Shown here one piece after another: positions 687-19,359 of a DNA stretch of 64,000 nt; within the stretch, counting starts at the first letter, position 1; the number at the start of each line of letters is the position of its first letter. A program made the position numbers and the translations under genes. The stretch spans positions 1 through 64,000 of the forward strand of contig NZ_JAALLS010000005.1 in assembly GCF_011059105.1 (NCBI RefSeq), written 5' to 3'. The notes under the pieces are model-generated. The model ran no database searches, was not told the DNA's origin, and worked only from the letters and a program-made list of their open reading frames with translations. The stretch comes from Fodinibius halophilus (GTDB lineage Bacteria > Bacteroidota > Rhodothermia > Balneolales > Balneolaceae).

Positions 687-1910
687 TTAGTTCATTTGAA
701 TTCGATATTTCACAATTCTTTGTTGCCCCATTTCCTCATCAGTCACACAAACGTAGGCATATCCATTTTTTACTGTTTTAATAGAACGGCTTTTCGGCCA
801 TCGAAACTTTGCAATCAATTCGCCGGTATTTTCCATCACCCGCCATTCTCGCATACCATCTTCTGGTATAATTGTAGATACCCACAGCCGGTTCCTATCA
901 TCAACAACTATAGAATGGATGGCCGGCCAGGTTTTCGGCAATTCCGCGTGCTCAACCAACCCGCGGTTCCAGTCGTCTTTATCCACTGTGCCAAGAAGTT
1001 CTTCCCGCTTTATTGGCCTCTTTTGAAATGGATAATAAATAGCTCGCTGGTAGTTGCCATCCGGTCCATAGACCTTGATTAAAAAATCATCGGTCCATGT
1101 GGTGTAGATATGATTGTCGTCCGAGATCCTAATCACCGTTCTACCGAGAAAAGGTAACGGTCTAAAATTAGACAAATGGCGGTCTTCGACACGTGTAGTC
1201 AGAATCTCCCTTGATTTCTTTACTTCAAAAACCTCATCAGAAGTAATATTACTTTCCTTGTCCATGAAATAGTATTTTTTTGGACGATCTTTGTCCAGAT
1301 TAGAATTCGGACTCCCAGCCCTTGCATCCATCCTCTGTTTCCTGAATCCTGCTAGATAGGTCCCGTTGTTTCGGATTAAGAGCCTCCATCTGAGCCATCC
1401 GTTTATTTCATCAAACTCGTCTTGATTAACCGAGGATTTAACAGAATTTGACTCAATAACTTTCAATGAATCAAGGGAATAAACTGTCGTCCGAAATCCC
1501 CTAAAATCAAACACATACAGACTACTTGAACCAATTTGGGTATTTGTTATACTTTGAAACTCACCTGGACCTGAACCTTTCCTCCCCAGACTTTTGAGGT
1601 AATTTCCCGCCGGATCAAACACATGAATTTTTGTAGCATCGTTGTCAGCAATAAACACTCTCCCGGACGTATCTACTTCAATACTTTCCAGCCAGCTATA
1701 AAATGAAACAGTATCATCGTGCCACTTTAGTGAATATTTATCGGGAGCTTCAAAAGTCGCTTCCCGAACCAGATCGACAGAAGCGGTTGGGGGCATATCC
1801 CCTGAATATACAACCAAATTCTCTGTTCCTTTAATATGCTTAGGGATATCCTCTTTTTGAGCGGTACATCCAACTAAAACAAACAATATCCAGATTAGTA
1901 AATTTTTCAT
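687..1910 (-). CDS. 6-bladed beta-propeller lipoprotein A
   Basis: Predicted outer-surface or periplasmic lipoprotein of about 407 residues. I start at ATG 1908-1910 because MKNLLIWILFVLVGC is then a standard lipoprotein signal (lipobox LVGC, Cys 15); an upstream in-frame start would add seven residues. Repeated blade motifs of the type VDTSGRVFIADNDATKIHVFD are visible, followed near residue 110-118 by GRKGSGPGEF, a signature shared with the other propellers here. A late VDDRNRLWVST blade is also seen. The fold assignment rests on these NHL/TolB-like repeats and resembles the Bacteroidetes 6-bladed propeller lipoprotein families. It follows peptide 1 (1992-2162) with an intercistronic hairpin between. 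Ligand and function are unknown; pairing with a peptide gene suggests a peptide-binding or peptide-associated role (inference). Confidence 0.85.
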   Translation of the reverse strand: MKNLLIWILFVLVGCTAQKEDIPKHIKGTENLVVYSGDMPPTASVDLVREATFEAPDKYSLKWHDDTVSFYSWLESIEVDTSGRVFIADNDATKIHVFDPAGNYLKSLGRKGSGPGEFQSITNTQIGSSSLYVFDFRGFRTTVYSLDSLKVIESNSVKSSVNQDEFDEINGWLRWRLLIRNNGTYLAGFRKQRMDARAGSPNSNLDKDRPKKYYFMDKESNITSDEVFEVKKSREILTTRVEDRHLSNFRPLPFLGRTVIRISDDNHIYTTWTDDFLIKVYGPDGNYQRAIYYPFQKRPIKREELLGTVDKDDWNRGLVEHAELPKTWPAIHSIVVDDRNRLWVSTIIPEDGMREWRVMENTGELIAKFRWPKSRSIKTVKNGYAYVCVTDEEMGQQRIVKYRIQMN

Positions 1911-1991: not shown

Positions 1992-2162
1992 CTACTCTTT
2001 GTCACACATGCATGTTCCCCAAGAACAACCTGTTGGCGGGCTCCCCCCTTCATAGTCATAGCAATTGCACCCCCAATCAGAACAACAATAACAATTGGGC
2101 TCCATAGCACCTGCCTTTACATTTTTCATTTCATTTCGACTAAGTGTTTTTGCAAATGACAT
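1992..2162 (-). CDS. Cys-rich leader peptide 1 (56 aa, 8 Cys)
   Basis: Small gene: ATG at 2160-2162, TAG at 1992-1994, 56 residues. The leader MSFAKTLSRNEMKNVKAG is almost identical to those of three other small genes in this locus and resembles double-glycine (here Ala-Gly) bacteriocin-type or RiPP leaders of Bacteroidetes. The core after AG has eight Cys with spacing C-x-C-C-x4-C-x-C-x10-C-x4-C-x-C, plus several Gly, Trp and Tyr. Paralogy supports the start: an AAGGTGACT motif precedes each such gene by 4-6 nt. It lies downstream of the AraC-type gene at 2302-2709 and the 12-bp repeats at 2250-2273. A secreted, disulfide-bonded peptide is inferred from the even Cys number and the neighbouring VKOR/DsbA gene; activity is unknown. 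Confidence 0.85.
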   Translation of the reverse strand: MSFAKTLSRNEMKNVKAGAMEPNCYCCSDWGCNCYDYEGGSPPTGCSWGTCMCDKE

Positions 2163-2240
2163 AATTAGTCACCTTGTATTTAATTAAAAATTTATTGTTG
2201 CTGCTATCACAGCTGATAGTACGATATTAAAGTTGCCAGT

Positions 2241-2293
2241 CACATGATTGAGATCTCTCCTGAAATACCTCCTGAATTTTATACTGAGAAATG
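2241..2293 (-). promoter_or_regulatory. Conserved upstream element with two 12-bp tandem repeats (copy 1)
   Basis: On the plus strand two 12-mers abut: gagatctctcct (2250-2261) and gaaatacctcct (2262-2273), flanked by conserved catg and by a tail ending actgagaaatg. The proximal repeat begins 88 bp upstream of the peptide-1 start. The same element occurs at 6209-6259, 6817-6867 and 8322-8396. I infer an operator or other cis-element, possibly for the adjacent AraC-type proteins; binding is not shown by sequence alone. Confidence 0.6.
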
Positions 2294-2301
2294 TTGGGAT
2301 T

Positions 2302-2709
2302 TTATGCCACCTCTTTGGCATCTTTACGCCAATCGGAAGGTCCCATATCCATTTCTCGCTTGAACGCTTTACAAAATGCAGAAAGAGAATTAAAACCTAC
2401 GGTTAACGCCACACGAGTTACAGGAAGATCCATTTCTCGTAATATTCTCTTTGCCGCCTTTATGCGATGATGCAGAATATATTCCTTAGGATAATATCCC
2501 ACATGCCGGGCAAAACAAGCAGAGAAAATTTTCTTTTTTATATGACATTTCTCTTTAAGCCATGAAACACTTAACGACGCATCAAACAAGTTTTCATGGA
2601 TACAACTGACCACAATTTGAATATTCTCTGGCCAATCGATATCTGGGGGTGATAATTCATCTAAATAGTTTTTTGACAACACTAAAATTCCCTCTTGTTG
2701 TTGATCCAT
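2302..2709 (-). CDS. AraC-type DNA-binding domain protein 1
   Basis: Stand-alone AraC/XylS DNA-binding protein of about 135 residues with no sensor domain. I start at ATG 2707-2709 (MDQQQEGILVLSKN) because the paralogue at 8405-8812 aligns from this point; a start at 2745 would add 12 residues. The first helix-turn-helix is around LSVSWLKEKCHIKKKIFSACFARHVG and the second around LPVTRVALTVGFNSLSAFCKAFKR, with the family's conserved GY.P..Y....R...A..L pattern between. It sits immediately upstream of the 12-bp repeats and peptide 1, so local regulation of the peptide gene is likely (inference). How it senses a signal is not visible; the N-terminal 35 residues match no domain I recognise. Confidence 0.85.
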   Translation of the reverse strand: MDQQQEGILVLSKNYLDELSPPDIDWPENIQIVVSCIHENLFDASLSVSWLKEKCHIKKKIFSACFARHVGYYPKEYILHHRIKAAKRILREMDLPVTRVALTVGFNSLSAFCKAFKREMDMGPSDWRKDAKEVA

Positions 2710-2891
2710 AAATGTTTTTTTCCTGATGCTATTTCGACTAGTCAAATGTTCAAGAGTATAAACCCAAGCAAATATTACATTAGAAAATGCTAATGCTACT
2801 GATATTAAGTAAATAGTCGCTCGTTTTTAAAATTTCAGAAAATAACAAAAGCTATCTGCTTTTCTGTTCTCCTATTCAGCTCTGGGGGTTC

Positions 2892-4142
2892 TCAATGTAT
2901 TTGAATTTTATACTTCACAATCTGGCCTACTCCCCTCTCATCCTCTTCTTGGGTATAGAGATAGCCGTTTTTAACTGTTTTAATAGGTTTTTGTCGTGGC
3001 CATTCAAATTTGGTGATCACTTCACCTGATTTCTCTAATATCCACCACTCATAAATCTCCATATCCTCCACTATAGTAGCTACCCAAAGCCGGTCTTTGT
3101 CATCAAAGAACATTGTGTGCAATGCGGGCCATTGATTAGGCAGACTTTCAGCTTCACGGATCATTTTCAAACCTATTTTGCCCGGCCCTAAACCTGACAA
3201 ATCTTTTTTTTCATAATATTCTAACAGTTCCTCTGCAGTCACCGATACATTATCAAAAGGATATTCAATAGATCGTTGATATTCCCCTTCTGAGTTTAGT
3301 ATATCGATTTTAAACTCCATGGAACGAGCTGTATATAATTCACCTTTTTCAGTAACGGTAAAAAGTGATTTTTCAAAAAATGAAAACGAACGTATCGCCC
3401 AATAAGGAGTGGGAACATTTTTAACATGGTATGTCAAATACCTTTTGCCTTTTTGTTGTAGTACAGGTCCATCTATAACAGAACCAGTACTGTCCAACAC
3501 AAAATACCGAATGTACTTTGTAGAATCTAAATATACAGATGGTGACTTTCGATATGAAACTAAGAACTTTCCACTTTGTTTGGGATATATTTTATTGGGG
3601 GAATAGCCCTCCAGTTTTATATAGTCATCCCTATTCGATGGTATTAGTTTTAACGTTTGATCAAATGATAGTTCTTTATTTAAGTTAAAAACTTGTGCAC
3701 GGGAGGGATAATAATTGCCAGCACCACTATAATCTGTAACATATAACTTATTCAAATATATGCATACTGTAGTGTTTGGTGTTATAGCTGCAAATTCTGC
3801 CGGTCCATTACCTTCCCTACCCAGTGAAGTGTAATAGCTCCCATCAGTATTAAATACGTGAACAGTGGTCTGATCCATATCAGCAATATATACTCTATTC
3901 TTATCATCTACGGTAAAGTCTGCAATATCGCCTACAAGGATTTCATTAGTAGTACCGTAGCTCTGCATTCGTTTAATACTCATCTCTTTAAAAGAGGAAT
4001 CTGGGGTACTTTCTTTTTTTTGTAAGGCAGCAGAATCAACAGCTTGGGTTAATTCTCGATGATAGTTATTGACTTCTCGATCTTTTTTTTTGGAAAAACT
4101 CAAAAAAGTAATAAAAAATATTATAACAGTGAATAATCTCAT
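2892..4142 (-). CDS. 6-bladed beta-propeller protein B, lipobox lost
   Basis: About 416 residues starting at ATG 4140-4142 (MRLFTVIIFFITFLSFS, then a Lys/Asp-rich stretch). Propeller blades are visible (FTVDDKNRVYIADMDQTTVHVF, then GREGNGPAEF, and later FFDDKDRLWVATIVED). The last third closely parallels propeller A, including a shared ending in which a VKNGY motif is followed by IVKYKIQ. Unlike propellers A, C, D, E and F it has no Cys at the end of the signal segment: the position where a lipobox LSC is expected reads LSFS before the Lys-rich stretch. The product may therefore be periplasmic or membrane-anchored rather than lipidated. It is the partner of peptide 2 (4204-4404), separated by a short hairpin. 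Confidence 0.85.
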   Translation of the reverse strand: MRLFTVIIFFITFLSFSKKKDREVNNYHRELTQAVDSAALQKKESTPDSSFKEMSIKRMQSYGTTNEILVGDIADFTVDDKNRVYIADMDQTTVHVFNTDGSYYTSLGREGNGPAEFAAITPNTTVCIYLNKLYVTDYSGAGNYYPSRAQVFNLNKELSFDQTLKLIPSNRDDYIKLEGYSPNKIYPKQSGKFLVSYRKSPSVYLDSTKYIRYFVLDSTGSVIDGPVLQQKGKRYLTYHVKNVPTPYWAIRSFSFFEKSLFTVTEKGELYTARSMEFKIDILNSEGEYQRSIEYPFDNVSVTAEELLEYYEKKDLSGLGPGKIGLKMIREAESLPNQWPALHTMFFDDKDRLWVATIVEDMEIYEWWILEKSGEVITKFEWPRQKPIKTVKNGYLYTQEEDERGVGQIVKYKIQIH

Positions 4143-4157
4143 ATTAATATATTTATT

Positions 4158-4179
4158 GGGCCCCATTCGCATGAGGCCC
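4158..4179 (-). other. Intercistronic hairpin between peptide 2 and propeller B
   Basis: gggccccat (4158-4166) and atgaggccc (4171-4179) form a nine-pair stem with one mismatch and a 4-nt loop. No T-tract follows on the minus strand, so this is a weak terminator or a structural element. Its placement equals the hairpins after peptides 1, 4 and 5. Confidence 0.5.
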
Positions 4180-4203
4180 TATCCAAAATAAAGTTGACCT
4201 TTC

Positions 4204-4404
4204 TCAATGTACACATCTGCCGGGAGCCGGTCCAGGAGAACCAGCTTCGCCAGGTCCACACATTCGATAAAGTGCAGTGACACAATCTTCTCCGTCAACA
4301 AAACCTTGACAGGTTGAATTTTGACAACCATCACAACGTACATGCATTCTTCCCGCTTTAACATTTTTCATTTCATCTCGACTTAGCGTTTTCATAAATG
4401 ACAT
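4204..4404 (-). CDS. Cys-rich leader peptide 2 (66 aa, 6 Cys)
   Basis: Leader MSFMKTLSRDEMKNVKAG is followed by a 48-residue core with six Cys (C-x2-C-x4-C-x8-C-x7-C-x14-C) and a Gly/Pro-rich stretch near the C-terminus. The start is fixed by leader conservation and by the CGGTGACT motif just upstream. It begins 97 nt after the stop of the VKOR/DsbA-like gene and lacks the 12-bp upstream repeats, so it is probably co-transcribed with the folding enzyme. The shared leader suggests a common export or maturation route. No modifying enzyme such as a radical SAM protein, LanM or YcaO was seen in the window, which favours disulfides as the core modification (inference). Confidence 0.85.
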   Translation of the reverse strand: MSFMKTLSRDEMKNVKAGRMHVRCDGCQNSTCQGFVDGEDCVTALYRMCGPGEAGSPGPAPGRCVH

Positions 4405-4501
4405 AAATAGTCACCGTTTGTTTTTTATTATGAATTATTGATAAGCCTGTTTCGACCATAAAAATTTAGCCGGCCAAGGCACAAGCAGCCTCTCTGCTCC
4501 C

Positions 4502-5344
4502 TCAAGCAAGTTCTTTTGATCCGTTTTTATTTTCAGCCATTCGTCGGGTTTTCAATAGGTCGGCAACCCCCGGCACCAGGGCTATAAGATCATCGGATCG
4601 ATAGTTCCCGGGCATCTTGAAACCATTAATAATAAAAGTGGGCGTCGCCGATATTTCTTGCTCTGCAATCCAGGCGTAGTGCTGTTCCTCTATATTTGAC
4701 AAATCACTATCTGTTGATTCTTGCAACTTATAGTTCTCTCGAAACCAATCAGGATCCATCTCTTCATACCAATCGGCAATTAGCGTCTGGGTACGGCGTT
4801 GTTCATCTCCCGTTCCCTGAATATGCTGTTGCCAGTAGCGAATCAAATAGGTACTTGCCGACAGTTCACCGATGGTATTATCCCTCCCTCTTGTAAACCG
4901 AATAGTGAACGAAATTTGGGACGGATAAATACTTAACAGTTGTTGGATATTGCTAAAGGCCATTCGGCAGGGATTACAGTGCAGATTAGCCACCACCAAA
5001 ATACGTAGTGGAGCCTCAGGGTTACCTAATGTTATCTCATTGGAAAAAGGAGAAATATCAAACTGTTCTCCCGAACGTAAAAAATGGACAAATACCTCCG
5101 GGTCTGACTTTACCCGATTTGCTTTTATTAACTCTTGGCTGACTTTTTGAGCATCATTAAAATTGATTTTCAGCAATAGTATGGCAGAAGTTACAAAAAC
5201 AAATATTACGGCTGATATCAGTATTGCGATCGGCTGTATCCCGCCAAACATCTGCATCTCGTACATTGTAGCAACAACTCCTGCTTGCACGATCAATACT
5301 GCATCCACCGCTAAACATAAACGACACCATGTCTTTGCTTTCAC
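4502..5344 (-). CDS. VKOR C-terminal half fused to DsbA/thioredoxin-like domain
   Basis: Second half of a VKOR-thioredoxin fusion. Reading from GTG at 5342-5344, it opens with TWCRLC, the active-site CxxC of vitamin K epoxide reductase homologues (C7, C10), then two membrane segments (about 11-30 and 36-59). A periplasmic DsbA-like domain follows with HCNPC (C123-C126) and a cis-Pro motif SATPTF. Such enzymes oxidise a partner thioredoxin and pass electrons to quinone, making disulfides in the periplasm. The loop cysteines of the same VKOR domain lie in the upstream ORF (5348-6121), in the same frame and separated only by a TAG and one AAA codon. Activity requires readthrough, reassembly of the two parts or correction of the stop. 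The genomic position suggests the Cys-rich peptides are its substrates. Confidence 0.85.
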   Translation of the reverse strand: MKAKTWCRLCLAVDAVLIVQAGVVATMYEMQMFGGIQPIAILISAVIFVFVTSAILLLKINFNDAQKVSQELIKANRVKSDPEVFVHFLRSGEQFDISPFSNEITLGNPEAPLRILVVANLHCNPCRMAFSNIQQLLSIYPSQISFTIRFTRGRDNTIGELSASTYLIRYWQQHIQGTGDEQRRTQTLIADWYEEMDPDWFRENYKLQESTDSDLSNIEEQHYAWIAEQEISATPTFIINGFKMPGNYRSDDLIALVPGVADLLKTRRMAENKNGSKELA

Positions 5345-5350
5345 TTTCTA
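5345..5350 (-). other. In-frame TAG interrupting the C39-VKOR-DsbA fusion
   Basis: Reading the minus strand the codons are TTA TAC TAT TAG AAA GTG AAA GCA AAG. Frame is unbroken, and protein similarity continues across the stop (YSLYY-stop-KVKAKTWC). Homologous fusions commonly carry Gln or a similar residue here, so CAG to TAG is the simplest origin. A GTG three bases after the stop could permit reinitiation of the second half. Confidence 0.8.
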
Positions 5351-6121
5351 ATAGTATAATGAATAGCCAATGACCGGGAGCGTGGCTATAGCGGCTCCTC
5401 CAAATAGCCACATAAATGAGGCCGGACTCCCCAAAAGGGGTATACATAATCCCATTATTAATAATTGAGATATGAAGTAACTTGCAGTAGCGTCAGCAAA
5501 GCTAAAACTGCCAAATAGGTTGGCCTCTTCGGCATTTAAGATACGATCACAATTGGTCCCTTTTCGGGCATTACAAAACGTCTCCACCGGTTCATAGGTA
5601 ACGCCCAGATCTTTAGCTACTAGCAGATAACCGATAATACTCCCCGCCATGGCCGTTGCAAACAGGGAAAGGTATAGCCAGCTCAACCCTTGAATAACCG
5701 GAAGGGCAATAAGACCTACCAGAGCAGCTCCCAAAACAACAGCTATTCTACCCTGTTTTTTTTCACTGGCTAACTGTTCATTGTGTTCAGTATCCACAAT
5801 AGTATCAGTAGATTCAGCCTTTAATACTACCCCATCCCAGTGTTCCAAATCTATTTCGTCTGTTTCCAGGTCACTTTTTCGTTCGACAACTACAAACTTT
5901 CCCCCGCCTTCATCAAGGTGTAGTACACAGGGGAACGGCAGATCCTGTAAATGCTTCTTTTCAACCTGTCCCACTTCATAATCAACGCCCAACCTGTCCA
6001 GCACATCCGCCACGCTTAATAGAGATGGATAATCGGGATGTTCAAGAATGGCCTGTTTGCAATAGTTTTTGGATATCGGGATATCCAAGCTCTCTAAATA
6101 ATCACTTATTACCTGTTCCAT
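5348..6121 (-). CDS. C39-like domain plus first part of VKOR domain
   Basis: 257 residues from ATG 6119-6121. Residues 1-105 resemble the peptidase C39-like domain found at the N-terminus of Bacteroidetes VKOR fusions: SKNYCKQAILEHPDYPSLLS, then VADVLDRLGVDYEV, then a strand pair with GGGKFVVV. The position where C39 peptidases carry the catalytic His (usually HFVV) is Lys 75, so proteolysis is unlikely and a leader-binding role is possible. Residues 124-257 hold four membrane helices and the VKOR loop cysteines C183 and C191 (C-x7-C followed by DRIL and LFG). The rest of the catalytic core, WCRLC, lies after the TAG in the next ORF. Upstream is a copy of the 12-bp repeat element. Confidence 0.85.
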   Translation of the reverse strand: MEQVISDYLESLDIPISKNYCKQAILEHPDYPSLLSVADVLDRLGVDYEVGQVEKKHLQDLPFPCVLHLDEGGGKFVVVERKSDLETDEIDLEHWDGVVLKAESTDTIVDTEHNEQLASEKKQGRIAVVLGAALVGLIALPVIQGLSWLYLSLFATAMAGSIIGYLLVAKDLGVTYEPVETFCNARKGTNCDRILNAEEANLFGSFSFADATASYFISQLLIMGLCIPLLGSPASFMWLFGGAAIATLPVIGYSLYY

Positions 6122-6208
6122 AACATATTTCCAGTATTAAATGTAGGTTCTCTTTTATAAATCAGTATTTATTTTTCAGAAACTGTTATTTACAAAAGAG
6201 AATTCTTT

Positions 6209-6259
6209 CATGCTTGAGATATCTCCTGAAATACCTCCTGAATTTTATACTGATAAATG
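6209..6259 (-). promoter_or_regulatory. Conserved upstream element with two 12-bp tandem repeats (VKOR copy)
   Basis: gagatatctcct (6216-6227) and gaaatacctcct (6228-6239) stand 95 bp upstream of the C39-VKOR start. Its presence before the folding enzyme as well as the peptide genes suggests coordinated control of peptide and oxidoreductase. Confidence 0.6.
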
Positions 6260-6545
6260 TCACAGTTTTATGTCACTTCTTTGATCATCTCTCCATAGAA
6301 TAGTATTTAGTTATCTTGCAAAAAACAGAGTATAAAATAGCCTTACAAATTTGGAAAAAAGATTTCATCGCATAGTCTTACAAATGGTGAACGAATTAAT
6401 CCCCCTCTTCAAATACCCATATTCCATTGAGTACTTATTGTGATATATATTGGAAAAGAAAAAATGAAACTCAATATAAAATCAGTTCCATTTTAAAATA
6501 AAGAGGAAGCCTTTAAACTCCCCCCTCTCATATACATGTTGTGTA
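6260..6545. other. Non-coding gap with remnant of an AraC gene 3' end
   Basis: Bases 6260-6292 match the last codons and stop of the two AraC-type genes (minus-strand reading ends ...IKEVT-stop against ...AKEVA-stop), but no AraC coding sequence continues upstream. This looks like the edge of a deleted or recombined AraC-operator block. From about 6293 to 6545 I see no gene; the DNA is AT-rich. Confidence 0.5.
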
Positions 6546-6737
6546 TTATTCACGAATACATTCACATGGCACTATGTTTCTTTGTTTGGGCGGACATGAT
6601 GATTCAGAATCATAAAAATCTGAACATTCCGTACAATTAACATCTGCATATTCACAACATTTATTACAACCAGCAGGACTAAAACCAGCCTTTATATTTT
6701 TCATTTCATCTCGACTTAGTGTTTTCATGAATGACAT
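6546..6737 (-). CDS. Cys-rich leader peptide 3 (63 aa, 8 Cys)
   Basis: Leader MSFMKTLSRDEMKNIKAG, then a 45-residue core with eight Cys (C-x2-C-C-x7-C-x2-C-x9-C-x9-C-x-C) and many acidic residues. The start follows an AAAAGGTGACT motif and is fixed by leader identity. The 12-bp repeats begin 87 bp upstream. Unlike the other peptides it has no propeller gene directly downstream; the next gene on the strand is the C39-VKOR gene, 424 bp away behind its own upstream element. The peptide is predicted to be exported and oxidised, with function unknown. Confidence 0.85.
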   Translation of the reverse strand: MSFMKTLSRDEMKNIKAGFSPAGCNKCCEYADVNCTECSDFYDSESSCPPKQRNIVPCECIRE

Positions 6738-6816
6738 AATTAGTCACCTTTTGTTTAGTTAATAATTATTATTGTTGGTAATGCAGCTGATAGCAGCATA
6801 ACAAGGCTGGCAGACA

Positions 6817-6867
6817 CATGCTTGAGATGTGTCCTGAGATTTCTCCTGAATTTTGTACAGTGAAATG
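6817..6867 (-). promoter_or_regulatory. Conserved upstream element with two 12-bp tandem repeats (copy 3)
   Basis: gagatgtgtcct (6824-6835) and gagatttctcct (6836-6847), 87 bp from the peptide-3 start, with the same flanks as the other copies. Sequence from the element to the start codon is nearly the same as at peptide 4. Confidence 0.6.
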
Positions 6868-6965
6868 AGTTAAAGCCATCTCATTTTCTTGGCCGCCATA
6901 CTAGTCAAAACTGATACAATACAGTGGTATTGACAATAATTGATGTATCATTGCCCATATCCGAA

Positions 6966-7973
6966 TTACATTAGAATGCTATTCTTATACAATGTTAATA
7001 TATATTTTCCTTGTGTAATTGATATCCCATATATGTGATTTTCATCAGAACTTAGTGCAATTGTTTTAGGCTTAAGCCCCTTTAACGACCTAATATACTT
7101 CCCGGTCAATTCCTCATAAACATCCACTATATTATTCGGCTCGTTATCAAAACCATAAGAGATAGCTAAAATATGTTTACCAGAAATATCAAAATCCACT
7201 GTCGAAAACTGAGCACCGGGAGCATACCCTAACATTGTCTCTCCTTTACTCTTGAGATAATTAGCCTCCGTATTGAAATTATCGATTATAGCAACCGAGT
7301 ATACCAATTCACCTTCGGAAGAATACTTTTTTAAAAGAGGTTCAGAATAACCCGCATAGTATAGATTACTATTTTGGATCTCAATGATCCCTTCGTATAG
7401 CATTGGATTATGCTCAGAGGGTACATTTTCAAAATGATGAACCGTTCCGTTGTTAACATTAACCAAGTTAAATATATACTTCATCCCAACCATTGGACTA
7501 AAGAGAACATAGGAGTTGCTATTTACTATCCTAATTTGGTGAGGCATCAATTTTTTAAACGTATGTTCTTCAATAAATTCACCGGGCGGTTTATACGTTA
7601 AAACTTTATTTTGCCTTTCATCTAAAACAACCAATAGTGAATCTACTACGTCAAAGCTTTGTAACTGTAATATTTCTTGTGGTCCTTTTCCTTTAGCAAT
7701 GTGAAAGGTTTTGTAATCAGAAAAATTGTCTTTTGTAATAGCCACAATTTTCTTCTCACCACTAATAAATAACTGGCTAGTATTTTGCCGTATATTTCTC
7801 ACATCATAGAGTTGAAACTTTGATAAGTTCAGACTATCTACAGCTGCTAAGGTGCCTTTTACTATTCGGCTTTCAATATTCTGCGAGCTCTTATTCGTAA
7901 ATTTTTTCTTCTCCTTTTTGCATGAAAGAAATAGGAAAAAGATACAGAAGAAAAGCTTAAATATATCTGACAT
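6966..7973 (-). CDS. 6-bladed beta-propeller lipoprotein C
   Basis: 335 residues with a short lipoprotein signal (MSDIFKLFFCIFFLFLSC, lipobox LFLSC with Cys 18 followed by a Lys-rich stretch). It is shorter and more divergent than its neighbours: the signature reads AKGKGPQEI, and blades such as SFDVVDSLLVVLDERQNKV and STVDFDISGKHILAISYG can be followed. It resembles the TolB-like/BF3164-type propeller lipoproteins of Bacteroidetes. Partner of peptide 4, separated by a 13-bp perfect hairpin. Codon use is AT-rich. No catalytic motif is visible. Confidence 0.75.
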   Translation of the reverse strand: MSDIFKLFFCIFFLFLSCKKEKKKFTNKSSQNIESRIVKGTLAAVDSLNLSKFQLYDVRNIRQNTSQLFISGEKKIVAITKDNFSDYKTFHIAKGKGPQEILQLQSFDVVDSLLVVLDERQNKVLTYKPPGEFIEEHTFKKLMPHQIRIVNSNSYVLFSPMVGMKYIFNLVNVNNGTVHHFENVPSEHNPMLYEGIIEIQNSNLYYAGYSEPLLKKYSSEGELVYSVAIIDNFNTEANYLKSKGETMLGYAPGAQFSTVDFDISGKHILAISYGFDNEPNNIVDVYEELTGKYIRSLKGLKPKTIALSSDENHIYGISITQGKYILTLYKNSILM

Positions 7974-7995
7974 AGCTAATAAGATTATTCAAAAA

Positions 7996-8030
7996 ATAAT
8001 GCGATAAGCGTTTCCCACTTATCGCATTAT
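7996..8030 (-). terminator. Perfect hairpin between peptide 4 and propeller C
   Basis: ataatgcgataag (7996-8008) and cttatcgcattat (8018-8030) are perfect 13-bp arms around a 9-nt loop; on the minus strand the right arm runs into TTTTTT. It is a good intrinsic terminator or attenuator that would make the peptide transcript more abundant than the propeller transcript. Confidence 0.7.
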
Positions 8031-8053
8031 AAATTCAAATTCATAGTTTAATA

Positions 8054-8242
8054 TTATTTATAGCACCTAGTATATGATCCATCTCTTGTATCCATGATCA
8101 TGCCACAATATCTTCCATCACCATCGGCACTACATCCTTCCCCAAGACAATCCGCACAACCACTACAATCACCTCCGGGTGCTATATAACCAGCTTTTAC
8201 ATTTTTCATTTCATCTCGACTTAGCGTTTTAGCAAATGACAT
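8054..8242 (-). CDS. Cys-rich leader peptide 4 (62 aa, 6 Cys)
   Basis: Leader MSFAKTLSRDEMKNVKAG, then a 44-residue core with six Cys (C-x2-C-x2-C-x4-C-x8-C-x13-C), rich in Gly and Asp. The start is set by leader identity and the AAAAGGTGACT motif. It follows AraC-type gene 2 and the longest 12-bp repeat array (four units), and precedes propeller C. Its Cys spacing most resembles that of peptide 2, which suggests a common fold among the six-Cys members (inference). Confidence 0.85.
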   Translation of the reverse strand: MSFAKTLSRDEMKNVKAGYIAPGGDCSGCADCLGEGCSADGDGRYCGMIMDTRDGSYTRCYK

Positions 8243-8404: not shown

Positions 8405-8812
8405 TTATGCTACTTCTTCGACCTCTTCACGCCAATCGGAAGGCCCCATATCCATTTCTCGCTTGAATGCTTTACAAAATGCTGATAGAGAATTAAAGCC
8501 CACAGCCAGGGCTACTCGTGTGACCGGAAGATCAATGTCGCGCAATGTTCTCTTTGCCGCCTTTATACGATGATGCAGAATATATTCTTTAGGATAGAAC
8601 CCAACATACTGGGCAAAACGAGCTGAAAAGACCTTGTGGTTTATATCACATTTGTCTTTTAACCATGATACGTTTAACGATGCATCAAATAAATTTTTAT
8701 GAATACAACTGACCGCAATTTGAACATTCTCCGGCCAATTGGAATCTGCAGGTGATAAATCATTTAAATAATTTTTTACCAACATTAAAATACCCTCTTG
8801 TTGTTGATTCAA
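8405..8812 (-). CDS. AraC-type DNA-binding domain protein 2
   Basis: 135 residues and a close paralogue of the 2302-2709 product along its whole length. The start codon is TTG (8810-8812), giving MNQQQEGILMLVKN, which aligns with MDQQQEG of the paralogue, whose start is ATG. Both helix-turn-helix units are intact (LNVSWLKDKCDINHKVFSARFAQ and ITRVAL-type second helix before GFNSLSAFCKAFKR). It is transcribed toward the 12-bp array and peptide 4. It probably binds the repeats; whether as activator or repressor cannot be read from the sequence. Confidence 0.85.
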   Translation of the reverse strand: MNQQQEGILMLVKNYLNDLSPADSNWPENVQIAVSCIHKNLFDASLNVSWLKDKCDINHKVFSARFAQYVGFYPKEYILHHRIKAAKRTLRDIDLPVTRVALAVGFNSLSAFCKAFKREMDMGPSDWREEVEEVA

Positions 8813-9096: not shown

Positions 9097-10239
9097 TCAC
9101 AGTCCATCGATCTCATAGCTTATAATCCGCGGAGACATATCTGAGTTGAAAATTCCATAAGCACTCTCCTCATTAATACTATACAGTTCAACCTCTTTCG
9201 GCAATATAAATTCCCAACGGGGGTTCCCTTTGCTGTCAAATCCCTGCCATGTTTGTTGGGGATTTCCCGGATCAAATCGCTTAACCCATCCCCGGCCTTT
9301 ATCATCAACTAACAGCCTCTTAAAAGCTGGCCAGTGCGAAGGGGTACCTACTTTTTGGACCGCTTTCTTAAAATTCTTAGGAAGATCCCGGGCCACGCTG
9401 TCAAGGTCAGCTGCCGTAAAAGGAAGCCCAACACTCCCCGCTCCTACCTCGCCCCTTCTTTTGCCGTCCCGGCTATACCTTTTTAGGTGCAAACTATCAC
9501 TTTTGCCTGTATATAACTGCCCTTTCGAATTTGCTGCAACATAGAACTCAGAGTAAATAGAAGTTATAAAGATGGATACTTTGCCAGGTTCAAAATATAC
9601 TAATCTCCGTGCGGTGGGATAGGGAGCGGGGAACTGCAGCAGACTTTTATCCACAAATGCTCCGGTAGCATCGAGCTTGGATATAGTAATTTGATGAGGA
9701 ACCTCATCTTCTTTGGGAGCTCTGAAATAGGCATCAACAAATACAGCCAGTATCTGTCCATTAGCCAGTGGAAATATAGTTCTGGGACTCCCAATTTTTG
9801 CGCCATTTACTTCGACATCGGGCAATTTTATCGTACGTATAAATTCAGCCGTCGTAACATTAAACAGTTCAATACGACGCGCTCGCTGCTGTAGTACATA
9901 TAATGTATCCGCTTGGATGCGAATGTTGGGTTTCAAGTCAGTAAATTCTCCCGGGCCTTTTCCCTCTCGTCCTATGGCATTCAAATAAGTGCCATCATCA
10001 GAAAACCGGTGTATCTTCTGCTGTTCGGTATCTGCGGCATAAATATTTCCGCTATTATCTGTGGCCAACCCAGAGAACTCACCAATCAGTGCTTCTTCTG
10101 TTGTTATCGGAATACTCAAATTTTTGGTCAACAACAAAGGATGAAGAGCACTTTCATCAGGTGCCTTTTCTTCGGATGAACAGCCTAATATAAGGCCCGC
10201 ACTCAATAGCAAAAGAAATAAATATTTTAGCAGTTCCAT
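9097..10239 (-). CDS. 6-bladed beta-propeller lipoprotein D
   Basis: About 380 residues from ATG 10237-10239; signal MELLKYLFLLLLSAGLILGC with lipobox ILGC. This start leaves 25 nt to the upstream stop, whereas the longest reading would overlap propeller E. Blades include LATDNSGNIYAADTEQQKIHRF, the signature GREGKGPGEF and a late LVDDKGRGWVKRF. It forms a tight pair with propeller E and lies downstream of the HlyD-type adaptor, so the three probably share a transcript. Higher GC than the peptide-adjacent propellers. Function unknown. Confidence 0.85.
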   Translation of the reverse strand: MELLKYLFLLLLSAGLILGCSSEEKAPDESALHPLLLTKNLSIPITTEEALIGEFSGLATDNSGNIYAADTEQQKIHRFSDDGTYLNAIGREGKGPGEFTDLKPNIRIQADTLYVLQQRARRIELFNVTTAEFIRTIKLPDVEVNGAKIGSPRTIFPLANGQILAVFVDAYFRAPKEDEVPHQITISKLDATGAFVDKSLLQFPAPYPTARRLVYFEPGKVSIFITSIYSEFYVAANSKGQLYTGKSDSLHLKRYSRDGKRRGEVGAGSVGLPFTAADLDSVARDLPKNFKKAVQKVGTPSHWPAFKRLLVDDKGRGWVKRFDPGNPQQTWQGFDSKGNPRWEFILPKEVELYSINEESAYGIFNSDMSPRIISYEIDGL

Positions 10240-10264
10240 AAGTAGTTTATCAGGATGGTTGATA

Positions 10265-11314
10265 CTAATTAGCTTTATAATCAAACGCTTTCACATAACT
10301 GGTTTCACTATCTAGCATATAGAGTCTGTCTCTGGTCAGTTCTACATCCCGAACCGATAACGGCAACTCAATAGAATAACGATACTGCCCGGTATCCAAA
10401 TGATAGACATCTATAAATGATGTCGGAAGTGCGTCACTCTCTTTTGCGAAACGTTGTAAAATAAGGAGGAGGTTATCCTCTGTTGACAACGCCCTGGAAT
10501 ACACTTTTACCGTTGGTGGTTTTGTAATATTCATATTTCCTGACTTTTCTTTCACCGGTTTTTGAAAAGGAATGCGGTCAACAGTACGAACTACTTTTGT
10601 CTGTTCTCCCTCTTTGTTAAAATAGTACAGATAGCTGGCATAGGAGGGCGAAAAGACAAAACCGGTATCAGAAATGGTCTCAATGTTACCTGAAACAGAT
10701 AGTCCGTTTTGGGTCTGGCTCTCTATGAACTGACCAAATTGATGCTGAATATTACCTTGAAGATCAGTACTGGAAAACAGTTTTTCTTCCATACTTCGCT
10801 CGATGACAAAACGATTACCCAATGTGGCAAAACGATATGGATGAGATTTAACTTTATGCGAAGTAATGAAACTGGATGATTTCTTATCAAAGAACATCAG
10901 CTCCATCTTTCGGCTATCGAGTACATATATGGAATCTCCGCGCTGATCAAAATCCATCAATTGTTGAAATTCTCCCGGCCCACGTCCCTCTTTACCATAA
11001 CTTCCTATATACTTTCCATCCCTTGTAAACTTTTTGAGGCGCATATCTCCAAAATCAGACACGTATAACTGGTTACCAAACACTTCAATGCTCATACCTC
11101 TAAGCAGGGAATCACGCACTTCATCATGAAGCGAAATCTCTTCACCAATAGCCCCTTTTTTCCACTTCCGTTGCTCGGGCGTCAATATTTCCCCCTTTTC
11201 GTTTTTTGTGATTTCCGTCCCCTTAGATCCATCCTCTTTTTCATTACACGATGTTAATGAAAGTGTTACAAAAATAGCTGTAAGCAGTAAAGCAGTTGAA
11301 ATTCTGAAGTTCAT
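10265..11314 (-). CDS. 6-bladed beta-propeller lipoprotein E
   Basis: 349 residues; signal MNFRISTALLLTAIFVTLSL with lipobox LTSC. Propeller signature GKEGRGPGEF follows the blade MSIEVFGNQLYVSDFGDMRLKKF. The C-terminal quarter lacks the second rigid WxS/T blade motif of propellers A, B and D, so it belongs to a different subgroup. It is located between the adaptor gene (130 nt upstream) and propeller D (25 nt downstream). No peptide gene sits immediately upstream; this pair may serve the RND system or a peptide encoded elsewhere in the locus (inference). Confidence 0.82.
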   Translation of the reverse strand: MNFRISTALLLTAIFVTLSLTSCNEKEDGSKGTEITKNEKGEILTPEQRKWKKGAIGEEISLHDEVRDSLLRGMSIEVFGNQLYVSDFGDMRLKKFTRDGKYIGSYGKEGRGPGEFQQLMDFDQRGDSIYVLDSRKMELMFFDKKSSSFITSHKVKSHPYRFATLGNRFVIERSMEEKLFSSTDLQGNIQHQFGQFIESQTQNGLSVSGNIETISDTGFVFSPSYASYLYYFNKEGEQTKVVRTVDRIPFQKPVKEKSGNMNITKPPTVKVYSRALSTEDNLLLILQRFAKESDALPTSFIDVYHLDTGQYRYSIELPLSVRDVELTRDRLYMLDSETSYVKAFDYKAN

Positions 11315-11444: not shown

Positions 11445-12572
11445 CTATTCGGGAGTTTGTAACCGTGGCTTGACAATCTGTAAATGAGACAAAGCGAAAT
11501 GACGGTCTACGGCAATGGTATCTCCGGGGGCTACTTGCTCGTGATTAATAATAGCCCACTGGCTATTCAGGGCTTCCGGTTCCACATATACCCAGTGCAC
11601 TTCATCATTTTCGGGTTTGAGTTTAAACAGCAACGTTCGCCCGCCGTCTCGTGAAAGGATAGCTGAGCGCGGCACGCGTACCTTCCCTTCCTGCTTAAGC
11701 ACTTGTATGCGCCCCTCTACCGTCATACCAGGTGACAAAATCCCGTCCCGGTTTTCGGCTTCGACAATGATTGTACCGGTTTTTGTTTTAGTATCTACGA
11801 CAGGATCTACTGCCATTACAGTTCCTTTAAGCTGCTCTGCTCCCGGGCCACTGAGCTTAACCTCCATACCGGACTCTATTTTACTCAGTTCCGATTCCAA
11901 TACATCAAAACGCAGGCGAACCGTGCGATCATCGACCAACTCGCCCACCTTGGTACCCGCGTTCACATAGGTTCCGTTGGCCAGGCGCCTATCGGTAGAA
12001 AGTGTGCCTGTAAAAGGTGCTTTGAGTACCGTATAAGACAGGTCCAGTTTGGCTTGTTCCAGCTCCAGCTCTGCCTTTGCCAGGCCGGTGGTAATACGTA
12101 CCATCTGTTTGCCGGCATCTTTTTTATGATCACCGTTGGTACCACTGTTATTACCGTTGGTACGCATATTCATCTCAATACGATACTTGTGAAGGGCCTC
12201 TTCGTAGGTATTCTGGGCCTGTTGCACTGCCATTTTTGCCTCGCGTCGGTCAAACACTAACAGCGTATCTCCTTTTTGCACGCTCCGTCCCTCGGTAATA
12301 TAAGATCGTTCTACATAGCCGCTGATCTTGGGCTTTAGCTCTACCGATTGATTGGCCTCTACCACCCCCTGGCTTTCAATATGTTGGTAGATCGGCTTGC
12401 TATCGGCGATGGCAAAAATAACTTCAGGCCGTACCTCGGCCGATTCCTGCTCTTCTTCGGACAATGGGTTTTTATCTTCCTCTTCTCCGTTTTTACAACC
12501 GCTGAGAATAATTCCGATACAGAGAATACTGAAAAAAAGGTTCCGGTATATATTTTTGGACGTACTGTGCAT
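11445..12572 (-). CDS. HlyD/MFP-type RND periplasmic adaptor lipoprotein
   Basis: About 375 residues from ATG 12570-12572, lipobox ILSGC. The order is typical of RND adaptors: a biotinyl-lipoyl half-motif (VELKPKISGYVERSYITEGRSVQKGD), a helical hairpin (QQAQNTYEEALHKY to LAKAELELEQAKLD), the second lipoyl half (YTVLKAPFTGTLS), then beta-barrel and membrane-proximal domains. It links an inner-membrane RND permease to an outer-membrane channel. The permease encoded at 16309-19359 is the obvious partner, although five other genes lie between; no TolC-type gene is in the window. Substrate unknown; export of the locus peptides or of a toxic by-product is a speculation. Confidence 0.9.
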   Translation of the reverse strand: MHSTSKNIYRNLFFSILCIGIILSGCKNGEEEDKNPLSEEEQESAEVRPEVIFAIADSKPIYQHIESQGVVEANQSVELKPKISGYVERSYITEGRSVQKGDTLLVFDRREAKMAVQQAQNTYEEALHKYRIEMNMRTNGNNSGTNGDHKKDAGKQMVRITTGLAKAELELEQAKLDLSYTVLKAPFTGTLSTDRRLANGTYVNAGTKVGELVDDRTVRLRFDVLESELSKIESGMEVKLSGPGAEQLKGTVMAVDPVVDTKTKTGTIIVEAENRDGILSPGMTVEGRIQVLKQEGKVRVPRSAILSRDGGRTLLFKLKPENDEVHWVYVEPEALNSQWAIINHEQVAPGDTIAVDRHFALSHLQIVKPRLQTPE

Positions 12573-12816
12573 GATGAAGTTTTTGTATGCTAAAAATAAA
12601 AAATGAATCCCTTGGTTGACAAACATCCCTTGTAATATATCCCGGATTAAAAGAACGCCGTTTGTATACCTCTGGGATAGTCTTTTAGGTACAATGCTAT
12701 CTAAATAGTATTGGCAATGTATCGATATGGAAGGAATGGCGCAAATGGAAAAGCTTTAATCGGAATTTGTAAAACAAGTGTTTGATGACTTTACACTTCT
12801 CATAATTTTAATCAAA

Positions 12817-13964: not shown

Positions 13965-15164
13965 TCAAAAATTAAACCACTTTAGTCTTCCACCGGTACT
14001 TCTAATAACTCCTTGTTTGGTAACTATCAAACTACCGTATGTCTCTTTTTTATTAAAATGTCGGCTCCCCAGATATTTAGCTTTAGTTTCATTTAGACCT
14101 ATCAAATAAAAATCTAATTGCCGATCCCAAGCAAATACAGAACTAATTACCTCACTATCTCTTTTGGTTTCAACTTTGAGCAAGGCTAAATCTTTGGTTA
14201 GTAAAGTAATATCTTTCATTATGCTATGATTACTCAATACAATCCTCAAACGTCCCTCTTTAGGCCAGTACTTCTGTTTACCTAGGATGAAATTCTTAAA
14301 TTTATAAGATCTAACAAGTTCTAATTCATCATTAAATATATAGATATAGGGTAATCGGCTGTAAGATAAAATATATAAGCCATATTGATTACTATATTTA
14401 ATAATCCCCTCTGTAAAGGGTCTTTTCAACATCCAATGATTATTTGTCTTATACCTTTTACCAAAACTGAAAACCTTTTTCCTATCATTATAAACATGTA
14501 GTGACGGTTCATTTTTATCACCAGTACTTTTTAAGTTTGAACCAGAAGTTTGATTAGTTGGGGTACCACCCAAAACAACAAAGGAACTGTCAGTTTTAGC
14601 TAGTGAATAGATAATTTGTTTATTCAACTTTGTTTCTTTCTTGAAAAAACAAGGCGTACTTTCACAGTAAAAAGTTGATATCCTATCCGAGGACATGGCA
14701 ATATATACCATATCATCTTTGATCGTTAAGTCGTTAGCATTTGATAACCCTCCCGGTCCTCTTCCAAACTCTGCAATATGATACAGAGAATCTTGCCTGA
14801 AATTATATTCAAAAAGTTCTTGGTTCTCAGTATCCAGTAATATCAATCGATTTTCATCTAATCCTTCAAGAACCAAATCTCCGTAACTATTTGTTTTTAT
14901 GGGTATTTTTTGTGTTGCATAACTTGAAGGGTTATTAAGTATACCCTTGATCTTTTTTATCATTTTATTACGTGACAAATCAAAGGACGATTTAGTGGTG
15001 TCAACAATGAAATGTCGATAATCCAAATATGGAATCCGTTCTTCAATAGGATGAAGCTCAAGTTTTCTATTAGATTCGTTTTCTTTATTTGAACAACCTC
15101 CTACTTGTAACAGTATGCATATTAATGCTAGGTTTAATAAAGATAAGCGACAACAAAAACTCAT
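13965..15164 (-). CDS. Beta-propeller-type lipoprotein F, partner of peptide 5
   Basis: 399 residues with lipobox VGGC (Cys 24). Divergent from propellers A-E: the signature is reduced to FGRGPGGLSNAND, preceded by the blade ENRLILLDTENQELFEYNF and followed by DDMVYIAMSSDRISTF. It resembles the DUF4221/TolB-like lipoproteins of Bacteroidetes that occur beside NVEALA peptides. It is separated from peptide 5 by a perfect 14-bp hairpin and lies 48 nt upstream of the thioredoxin-like gene. Strongly AT-rich. Confidence 0.7.
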   Translation of the reverse strand: MSFCCRLSLLNLALICILLQVGGCSNKENESNRKLELHPIEERIPYLDYRHFIVDTTKSSFDLSRNKMIKKIKGILNNPSSYATQKIPIKTNSYGDLVLEGLDENRLILLDTENQELFEYNFRQDSLYHIAEFGRGPGGLSNANDLTIKDDMVYIAMSSDRISTFYCESTPCFFKKETKLNKQIIYSLAKTDSSFVVLGGTPTNQTSGSNLKSTGDKNEPSLHVYNDRKKVFSFGKRYKTNNHWMLKRPFTEGIIKYSNQYGLYILSYSRLPYIYIFNDELELVRSYKFKNFILGKQKYWPKEGRLRIVLSNHSIMKDITLLTKDLALLKVETKRDSEVISSVFAWDRQLDFYLIGLNETKAKYLGSRHFNKKETYGSLIVTKQGVIRSTGGRLKWFNF

Positions 15165-15226: not shown

Positions 15227-15469
15227 TTATCTTTTGGGAGGTTCTTGGCAATTTGTATGACCAGTACATGGTAGTTTGCCCGTTGGAGAAGCACAATTGG
15301 TCATATTATAGTTACCATCACATGATCCACCCTTACAATATGTATAAGAACAACCAGCTGTCATCCTAGCTTCGGCATTAGTAACATTTAAAAAATGAGC
15401 TGTACCCATTCCTACAATTAAAAAGAAAGCCAAAAAGAGTACACGACTAGATTTTATTAATTTGACCAT
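15227..15469 (-). CDS. Secreted Cys-rich peptide 5, NVEALA-like (80 aa, 6 Cys)
   Basis: Start ATG 15467-15469. The N-terminus is a hydrophobic Sec-type segment (SRVLFLAFFLIVGMG) ending in NVTNAEA, reminiscent of the NVEALA motif that ends the leader of a Bacteroidetes small secreted peptide family. The mature part has six Cys (C-x4-C-x4-C-x8-C-x8-C-x5-C), Gly/Asn/Thr-rich with a basic tail. It does not share the MSF-KTLSR leader, yet occupies the same place as the other peptides: after an AraC-type gene and before a hairpin and a propeller lipoprotein. The NVEALA relationship is tentative. Confidence 0.75.
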   Translation of the reverse strand: MVKLIKSSRVLFLAFFLIVGMGTAHFLNVTNAEARMTAGCSYTYCKGGSCDGNYNMTNCASPTGKLPCTGHTNCQEPPKR

Positions 15470-15614: not shown

Positions 15615-16058
15615 TTAACTAATCTTGTTTTCACTTCTCCACTTACCGGGCGGAACCCCTTTTATTCGCTTAAAGGCCTTAACAAAGGTTGAGGAGTTTC
15701 TATATCCTACATGCATTGCTATGCGTTGAATCGTCAATCCATCCAAACTATTATCATCTAATAGTTTTACAGAGGCCTTAACCCGTAATAAATTGATAAA
15801 TTTCTTTGGTGGTACCCCCAGGTAAAACTTGAACTTTCCGGCCCAGTTGTTGCCGTTTATATCACACTCCTTTTTTACAAATGCTACTGTTAGCTGATGA
15901 TTAAATAAATGTCGGTAAATGCATAATAACATTCCTTCAATAATACCCGGCAGTTGCTTTTTGTTACTTTTAACCCCAAACTTCTGATCTTTTTTACCCA
16001 TAACAGGGGGGGGGATGGATTCTGAATGAGTCTCTCTTGAAATGCCTGTGATGTACAT
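15615..16058 (-). CDS. AraC-type DNA-binding domain protein 3
   Basis: 147 residues from ATG 16056-16058, or 128 from ATG 15999-16001. The C-terminal 100 residues hold both AraC helix-turn-helix units (LTVAFVKKECDINGNNWAGK, then LTIQRIAMHVGYRNSSTFVKAFKR and the closing PGKWR). More divergent than AraC proteins 1 and 2 but with the same size and layout. A run of nine C (G9 on the plus strand, 16006-16014) lies in the N-terminal codons, between the two candidate starts, and could change the N-terminus by slippage. It is upstream of peptide 5 and downstream of the RND permease. Confidence 0.8.
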   Translation of the reverse strand: MYITGISRETHSESIPPPVMGKKDQKFGVKSNKKQLPGIIEGMLLCIYRHLFNHQLTVAFVKKECDINGNNWAGKFKFYLGVPPKKFINLLRVKASVKLLDDNSLDGLTIQRIAMHVGYRNSSTFVKAFKRIKGVPPGKWRSENKIS

Positions 16059-19300: not shown

Positions 19301-19359
19301 CCAAAGATGAACGTCGCCAAAATTAACATGAATGCTGCTATCGGGCGTTTTAGTAGCAA
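16309..19359 (-). CDS. RND efflux permease (AcrB/HAE1-like), TTG start
   Basis: 1016 residues, the usual size for a resistance-nodulation-division permease. N-terminal LLKRPIAAFMLILATFIFG and the NLLPEVDSPTL motif open the first membrane helix and porter domain. Membrane block LLYGALLAFVILFLFLDNWR through GLLVDNAIIVLENINRH carries the conserved proton-relay Asp region, and the second half repeats it as GIAVNDSILKVDFMRRY. An in-frame TAA lies eight codons upstream with no ATG between, so the start is TTG 19357-19359; an ATG ten codons later would cut the first helix. With the adaptor at 11445-12572 it would form a proton-driven pump across the envelope. Higher GC than the intervening genes, suggesting the peptide-5 cassette was inserted between two parts of an older pump operon (inference). 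Confidence 0.92.
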   Translation of the reverse strand: MLLKRPIAAFMLILATFIFGTIALTELSVNLLPEVDSPTLLVQTDWSGAAPREIEQRINELMEARLSTVQGIESIHGFARQGQSIISLKFKWGQNMDLSFLNVREKLDQIRGALPEQAKRPQLVQNTASDKPIAILGITSADNPNPDFNTRLSLKRWAEQVLSRRLEQAEGIAQTVLVGEVKPEVQIRYRPKALNRYDISLSQVENLVAGANLFTSTGEMRDGWYRYSLKIQSRIQSIDDVKEVPLKTLGTGRVLKLSDVAEVDLGEADPTSFSLVDGKEVLSVLVKKEYGANTVEAYDTMLPLLDELRSKNKDIGITVLQENATFIRNAINNLLQTLLYGALLAFVILFLFLDNWRTPFTIGVAIPVSIFLTFFVMYIFDIQLNIVSLSGLTLAIGLLVDNAIIVLENINRHRATTSSIMEAAYKGTSEISLAVTASTFTTISVFLPLVFLGGFEGAFFQDQAWTLSISLLASLGVALLILPVLVTQFRKKEGAQSTVLGFNQFFDRLRNQYEQSLQWALRHKGLFLGGMMLLFLGTAVLFNSVTKRVLPETEPQKVRYQVRLPGNTSLHATREVAESLIRKVAVYKADDRPTRVLGGYTDQTNLANLSEEGRNKFTISIPVNGYEMADKLHREVTDFLAGQPDWSGQQLAAQNALNVLPSANEPPIIFRLVDEDRNKSEQLAVKLEQDLQKVREDLPFKKQYEQQLQTYQLRFNTEQLLRLGINEEEVLQYLKSLTRGSWITDWNRQDENVPIRMVGYDRQIFEPEDIILDLNNLKVPLSKVVEIKKSSEPEQLERVNQTPVLSYMSEIGFTDWWWHGEEIQNVLTKFARETGTEVKVGGAVLSISSLLSDMGLLLLISVVIIYIILSVQFESLRHPLIILVAVPFAWIGSILILWGTGISLNALSFMGILILTGIAVNDSILKVDFMRRYFADTGDLHQAITKAGLHRFRPVVMTSLTTIFGLIPMLLPFGDGYAFRQSLALALMGGMITSTLLTLYLVPIIFQWVERLRVKN

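Follow-up and report, generated by a model that had tools for sequence, protein, structure and literature searches.

What do four small genes make when their products all begin with the same short leader and then part into unrelated, cysteine-rich cores? The question is raised by the window, a 64,000-nucleotide stretch of the Fodinibius halophilus genome (family Balneolaceae, phylum Bacteroidota; contig NZ_JAALLS010000005.1, positions 1 to 64,000), in which a sequence-only reading had picked out these genes, here called peptides A to D. The answer we favour, at a little better than even probability, is that they would encode precursors of mini-proteins that are secreted with all cysteines in disulfides, belong to a polymorphic cassette system and act as antagonists, with beta-propeller proteins encoded beside them as immunity proteins.

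Four precursors share a double-glycine-type leader

All four genes lie on the minus strand, with leaders at 2109-2162, 4351-4404, 6684-6737 and 8189-8242. The sequence-only reading, which passed over the leader genes on other contigs, the pairing with propellers and the VKOR fusion gene, was right that one leader serves four genes, and its core counts of 8, 6, 8 and 6 Cys are correct:

1992-2162, minus strand: precursor peptide A, 56 aa (leader MSFAKTLSRNEMKNVKAG and a 38-aa core), 8 Cys
4204-4404, minus strand: precursor peptide B, 66 aa, 6 Cys; core family shared with locus L077:8955-9203
6546-6737, minus strand: precursor peptide C, 63 aa, 8 Cys; the next gene downstream is a fusion gene (below), with no propeller directly downstream
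8054-8242, minus strand: precursor peptide D, 62 aa, 6 Cys

The 18-residue leader common to peptides A to D reads MSF[AM]KTLSR[DN]EMKN[VI]KAG, and the cores behind it are unrelated. Its DNA pattern occurs with 0-1 mismatches at exactly four sites in the window, against a mean of 0.25 matches in shuffled sequence. The genome (98.6% complete, 91 contigs) holds eight leader genes in total, the four outside the window being divided between a 5.9-kb contig, C41, and contig C27, two on each; a leader hidden Markov model (HMM) collected about 75 leader peptides across the family Balneolaceae. The double-glycine consensus is long established, with hydrophobic residues at positions -12, -7 and -4 from the leader end and G/A-G at the cleavage site, and all eight leaders conform to it, carrying L-12, S-11, E-8, M-7, V/I-4, A-2 and G-1 in 8/8 cases; many relatives' peptides have GG at the leader end. 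Judged by these residues, the leader of peptides A to D is a canonical double-glycine-type export leader. Constraint on the leader had been anticipated and is borne out: the six MSF leaders of the genome differ by 65 synonymous and 23 non-synonymous codon changes, so the protein sequence is kept under purifying selection while the DNA drifts. Conservation of the leader genes is high from -20 to +39 and drops on either side.

Even cysteine numbers favour disulfide pairing

For the parity test the leader HMM gathered 85 peptides from Balneolaceae and other Bacteroidota, and the 83 cores of at least 25 residues were scored. The number of Cys is even in 78 of these (p = 6e-18), with no even-count excess for seven other residues in the same cores (Gly, Ser, Asn, Asp, Tyr, Ala and Thr). 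When each core cluster was given one vote, in a set to which Pedobacter-type peptides were admitted at three or more Cys, 73 of 76 were even and 3 odd (p = 2e-18). Where Cys numbers differ inside a core family they do so, in most families, by two or four. The suggestion that even counts reflect full disulfide pairing is favoured by this near-universal parity and by a VKOR-DsbA fusion encoded in the array; the even-Cys rule falls short of proof, and we consider it very likely that the cores form disulfides.

A fusion oxidase and a C39 exporter accompany the peptides

The fusion gene (4502-6121) sits between peptides B and C, in two parts:

5348-6121, minus strand: fusion gene, 5' part; degenerate C39-like domain and first part of VKOR, ending at an in-frame TAG
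4502-5344, minus strand: fusion gene, 3' part; VKOR WCRLC active site and DsbA-like thioredoxin domain (PF13462, 8e-10)

A single in-frame TAG at 5348-5350 splits the gene, and the VKOR match runs across it; the stop could be a true nonsense mutation or could come from an error in the assembly. Contig C23 encodes an intact paralogue of 546 aa, and relatives carry intact copies too. At the C23 locus the intact fusion adjoins a Cys-rich peptide (L016:7664-7858, 6 Cys), a C39 ATP-binding cassette (ABC) transporter and HlyD, so that the exporter is encoded in the genome, outside the window's array. The two Cys pairs of VKOR are conserved in 28 fusions from the phylum, as are the thioredoxin CxxC and the cis-Pro; the loop Cys pair and CxxC that mark a VKOR are both present in the window copy, on opposite sides of the stop.

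The N-terminal domain of the fusion matches the C39 domains of PCAT1 (E 8e-5) and ComA (6e-3), and aligns with the C39 domain of the neighbouring transporter at an hhalign probability of 94.8%. The catalytic Cys segment of a C39 peptidase is absent from this domain and the His is replaced, and because of these losses it would be a docking rather than a cutting domain. An AlphaFold2 model of the fusion is confident (predicted local distance difference test, pLDDT, 87), and its C-terminal part matches DsbA-like folds. Among 92 Balneolaceae genomes the fusion is present in 12 and the transporter in 14; all 12 fusion genomes carry the transporter, an association that is partly one of physical linkage. 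Across the phylum, 40 of 395 sampled genomes have the fusion. Leader, C39-ABC/HlyD exporter and VKOR-DsbA fusion together favour the earlier view of these products as exported peptides, and with high confidence we predict that they are exported.

Cores and propellers are inherited together

Beside peptides A, B and D, and further along the window, lie propeller genes:

687-1910, minus strand: six-bladed beta-propeller lipoprotein, partner of peptide A; lipobox LVGC; PF17170 4.9e-13; AlphaFold2 pLDDT 83
2892-4172, minus strand: six-bladed beta-propeller, partner of peptide B; PF17170 1.8e-10
6966-7973, minus strand: divergent propeller-type partner of peptide D; no Pfam match; 102 bits to a propeller HMM whose seeds included this protein itself, among others
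9097-10284, minus strand: propeller lipoprotein, possible orphan partner, no adjacent peptide; PF17170 9.8e-14
10265-11314, minus strand: second propeller lipoprotein without adjacent peptide; PF17170 9.8e-14

By the propeller HMM, a six-bladed propeller gene is next downstream on the same strand in 69 of 75 family peptides, and 56 of these 69 propellers carry a lipobox-like motif. The fold modelled for the propeller (pLDDT 83) is similar to that of NHL-type six-bladed propellers and of BF0058, an exported Bacteroides protein.

Coupling between the two was measured on 65 peptide-propeller pairs in between-genome comparisons only, with 500 within-genome propeller shuffles as the null. Core similarity correlates with propeller similarity at r = 0.49; the shuffles averaged 0.06, peaked at 0.19 and never reached the observed value (0/500). 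Propeller similarity is 0.41 where cores are similar (58 comparisons) and 0.11 where they are dissimilar (1,864). The leader, though part of the same gene, is uninformative on the core (identity 0.49 with similar and 0.53 with dissimilar cores), and leader similarity is 0.63 within genomes against 0.53 between them. Since the core predicts the propeller and leaders are more alike within genomes, core and propeller travel together while the leader stays with its host. The core of peptide B, for instance, matches that of L077:8955 from another species of the genus (z 20.6), and the best between-genome match of its propeller is the partner of that same peptide (rank 1 of 58). It is thus very probable, on this comparative evidence, that core and propeller form cognate pairs. 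The hallmarks of polymorphic toxin-immunity systems, a variable part cognate with a downstream gene and subject to exchange, are found here at the sequence level, and the predicted architecture is that of such a system.

Core diversity probably arises by exchange of cassettes

The cores had been called hypervariable. They are indeed diverse behind one leader, but not through rapid point substitution: within core families the non-synonymous rate (dN) is 0.02-0.5 for most pairs, the synonymous rate (dS) is around 1 or saturated, and the Cys columns are fully conserved in 8/9 within-family comparisons. Positive selection in the cores, proposed for comparison with the leaders, was not detected at the gene level within core families; pairwise dN/dS is clearly <1 where dS is measurable and the Cys columns are kept, and we rejected gene-wide positive selection, a verdict limited to gene-wide rates as several within-family dS values are saturated. 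Core diversity appears to be that of many distinct core families swapped as cassettes behind a shared leader.

Remnants of transporter genes are what one would expect had recombination in conserved flanks inserted or duplicated the cassettes. In five genomes a propeller gene is immediately followed by a short N-terminal C39-ABC fragment (L066:3973, L067:8415, L077:12218, L078:3662 and L080:423), and C-terminal tails of HlyD lie upstream of peptides at L010:18079 and L079:4037 and, at the DNA level, of both C27 cassettes. Peptide-propeller arrays persist in three genomes that have neither the fusion nor a full transporter (G012, G017 and G091), and in the first two some peptides are truncated or stop-bearing. 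In the orphan array of G012 a C39-ABC head stands beside a C-terminal part of HlyD (L076:4816-5846), a decayed exporter. Transposase-like genes or remnants were also seen in or beside peptide arrays (L009:2585-3505, L016:6029-7122).

Pedobacter and Mucilaginibacter often have another partner

In Pedobacter and Mucilaginibacter a leader of this type (MKKVNLLSKAEMKNVMGG and similar), Cys-rich cores, the fusion, C39-ABC and HlyD co-occur. The gene next after 22 of 52 peptides encodes a secreted protein of thioredoxin/TlpA type (assigned by motif, with Pfam-backed examples). As the partner there is often thioredoxin-like and not a propeller, the partner family would be lineage-specific and the presence of a secreted partner recurrent.

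Regulators, peptide 5 and the surroundings of the array

Small regulators and a further peptide set lie upstream of, or near, the four precursors:

2302-2745, minus strand: small AraC-type helix-turn-helix regulator directly upstream of peptide A; PF12833 2.9e-19
8405-8812, minus strand: small AraC-type helix-turn-helix regulator directly upstream of peptide D; PF12833 6e-19
13965-15164, minus strand: lipoprotein-like partner of peptide 5; no Pfam match; propeller-like GRGPGG motif
15227-15469, minus strand: probable peptide 5, 80 aa, 6 Cys, hydrophobic Sec-type N-terminus
15615-16058, minus strand: small AraC-type helix-turn-helix regulator upstream of peptide 5

A fifth peptide with 6 Cys had been grouped with the four. 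The Cys count holds for the gene most likely meant, 15227-15469, but its N-terminus is of Sec type and not the shared leader. The peptide 5 set appears to have the same layout (peptide, lipoprotein-like partner, AraC-type gene) with a different export signal and route. Peptide 5 looks NVEALA-like (PF14055), but this relationship was set aside as a lead only: Pfam gave no match, the family is barely present in the phylum sample, and the open literature yielded no paper on it. Similar layouts occur at L010:11929-12162, L010:4191-4463, L071:18045-18326 and L077:13868-14089. Genes for an RND (resistance-nodulation-division) efflux adaptor and inner-membrane pump adjoin the array at 11445-12626 and 16309-19359. 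Contig C17 (L017) holds a separate C39-ABC cluster with double-glycine peptides in whose Gly/Ala-rich cores Cys is scarce or absent; it is probably a second system of bacteriocin type in this genome.

A proposed mechanism and its alternatives

In the mechanism we propose, the double-glycine leader would be cut after AG and the peptide exported by a C39 ABC transporter with HlyD, likely those of the C23 locus. The leader would dock on the degenerate C39-like domain of the fusion, as the substrate of HlyB does on the C39-like domain of that protein, and disulfides would be installed by VKOR and the DsbA-like domain during or after export. Core and downstream propeller are inherited as a cognate pair, with the leader remaining like the genome's other leaders; cores would be exchanged by recombination in conserved flanks, leaving transporter-gene fragments as scars. 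The mature peptides may then act on competing bacteria, each propeller lipoprotein serving as the specific immunity protein. We put antagonism of competitors with propeller immunity at even chances. Several points weigh against it: peptide C and a small number of other peptides lack an adjacent propeller, the window's own fusion gene is broken by the TAG, coupling between neighbouring genes shows co-inheritance and not binding, and the thioredoxin-like partner of Pedobacter and Mucilaginibacter could be a folding helper instead of an immunity protein.

This last point extends to an alternative that we consider unlikely, yet the most serious of those weighed, in which the propeller serves its peptide as a dedicated folding or maturation factor in the periplasm, a part taken in Pedobacter by the thioredoxin-like protein, and the peptides may have any extracellular role. 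A secreted, cognate partner adjacent to the peptide would suit this function, and the thioredoxin domain often found in the Pedobacter partner is natural for disulfide isomerisation; the propellers, however, are without a redox domain, and both the peptide-less propellers (9097-11314) and the arrays in exporter-less genomes fit orphan immunity better. The co-diversification of core and propeller would also be expected of ligand-receptor pairs, and with AraC-type genes upstream of several cassettes it could describe a pheromone system, with the exported peptide as signal, the propeller lipoprotein as receptor and the AraC-type protein as response regulator. We hold this to be rather improbable, as at 135-147 aa the AraC-type proteins are short, their gene is absent from many cassettes, no membrane-spanning sensor was seen beside the AraC genes to link a periplasmic propeller with a cytoplasmic regulator, and peptides of 35-60 residues with 6-10 Cys would be unusual as pheromones.

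Two further readings concern the cysteines themselves. Cys-rich secreted peptides might bind metals or nutrients, with the propeller lipoprotein as surface receptor, and among the many folds that the propeller model resembles is the B12-binding surface lipoprotein BT1954. Most metal binding needs reduced thiols, yet an oxidase fusion belongs to this system; chelation needs no even-Cys parity, the cassettes showed no TonB transporter, and such a role seems very improbable. The cysteines could also sit in thioether or other cross-links of a modified RiPP (ribosomally synthesised and post-translationally modified peptide) of lanthipeptide or radical-SAM type. The leader of peptides A to D is weakly like the NCBIfam leaders of lanthipeptides and of TIGR04149 radical-SAM RiPPs, all below cut-off, but even Cys numbers and the VKOR-DsbA fusion point to disulfides, leaving little credence for this reading. 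For the LanC cyclase, PF05147 has no match in the genome; of nine radical-SAM genes in the genome, none is on the peptide-carrying contigs C45, C41, C27 and C23. The lanthipeptide and radical-SAM readings were rejected on these two results. For a LanB-type dehydratase, PF04738 (Lant_dehydr_N) has 0 matches in the genome, in a search that was also silent in all control genomes.

Relation to known systems

Several described machines come close to the proposed system. Class II bacteriocins and microcins, such as pediocin PA-1 with its accessory thioredoxin-like PedC, share the double-glycine-type leader, small Cys core, C39-ABC with HlyD and a dedicated disulfide-forming protein; they differ from the present system, whose activity is putative, in that here many unrelated cores follow one leader, the oxidase is a membrane fusion with a dead C39-like domain, and the partner is a periplasmic propeller. 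Polymorphic toxin-immunity systems (contact-dependent inhibition, Rhs and colicin-type) likewise combine a conserved delivery part, a swapped active part and a cognate downstream partner with orphan modules and fragments, whereas here the effector would be a tiny disulfide peptide delivered by C39-ABC and propeller immunity is putative. The C39-like domain of HlyB is also a degenerate C39 fold lacking catalytic residues beside a substrate-handling machine, but in our fusion this domain is joined to VKOR and a DsbA-like domain and not to an ABC transporter. Bacterial VKOR-DsbA fusions have the VKOR with two Cys pairs and the thioredoxin-fold oxidoreductase; the extra N-terminal C39-like domain and the co-location with double-glycine peptides set the present ones apart.

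Among named families, two from NCBIfam have a recognisably related leader: NF047798 (leader_Chryseo, 'bacteriocin-like protein'), a leader model for Chryseobacterium-type peptides, and NF047792 (CCPGW putative bacteriocin). The window cores are different. The four window peptides score 18.4-19.8 bits against the NF047798 cut-off of 23.5 and at most 16.1 bits against the NF047792 cut-off of 80; in a Bacteroidota metagenome-assembled genome, a peptide encoded next to a transporter and a related fusion (L161:7701-7910) passes NF047798 with 27.8. The open literature, a coverage outside which most subscription journals fall, held nothing relevant on VKOR with bacteriocin or C39, nor on propeller with immunity. 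The parts are of known kinds; apparently undescribed are the way they are combined, the make-up of the fusion and the pairing with propellers.

The system links four features that are usually annotated apart and as unknown, namely tiny Cys-rich open reading frames, 'VKOR family protein', C39 ABC transporters and '6-bladed beta-propeller' lipoproteins. It is also a source of dozens of natural disulfide scaffolds for which partners are predicted, and the machine it suggests, for oxidative folding guided by the leader, could be reconstructed in a laboratory host. More broadly, and as a tentative proposal to which we give somewhat less than even weight, there may be a Bacteroidota-wide class of interbacterial weapons in which leader-guided oxidative folding on a dead C39-VKOR-DsbA fusion is coupled to C39-ABC export, with propellers in Balneolaceae and thioredoxin-fold proteins in Pedobacter and Mucilaginibacter as interchangeable cognate immunity. 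For part of the large DUF5128/6-bladed propeller family, cognate pairing with these peptides would offer a testable function.
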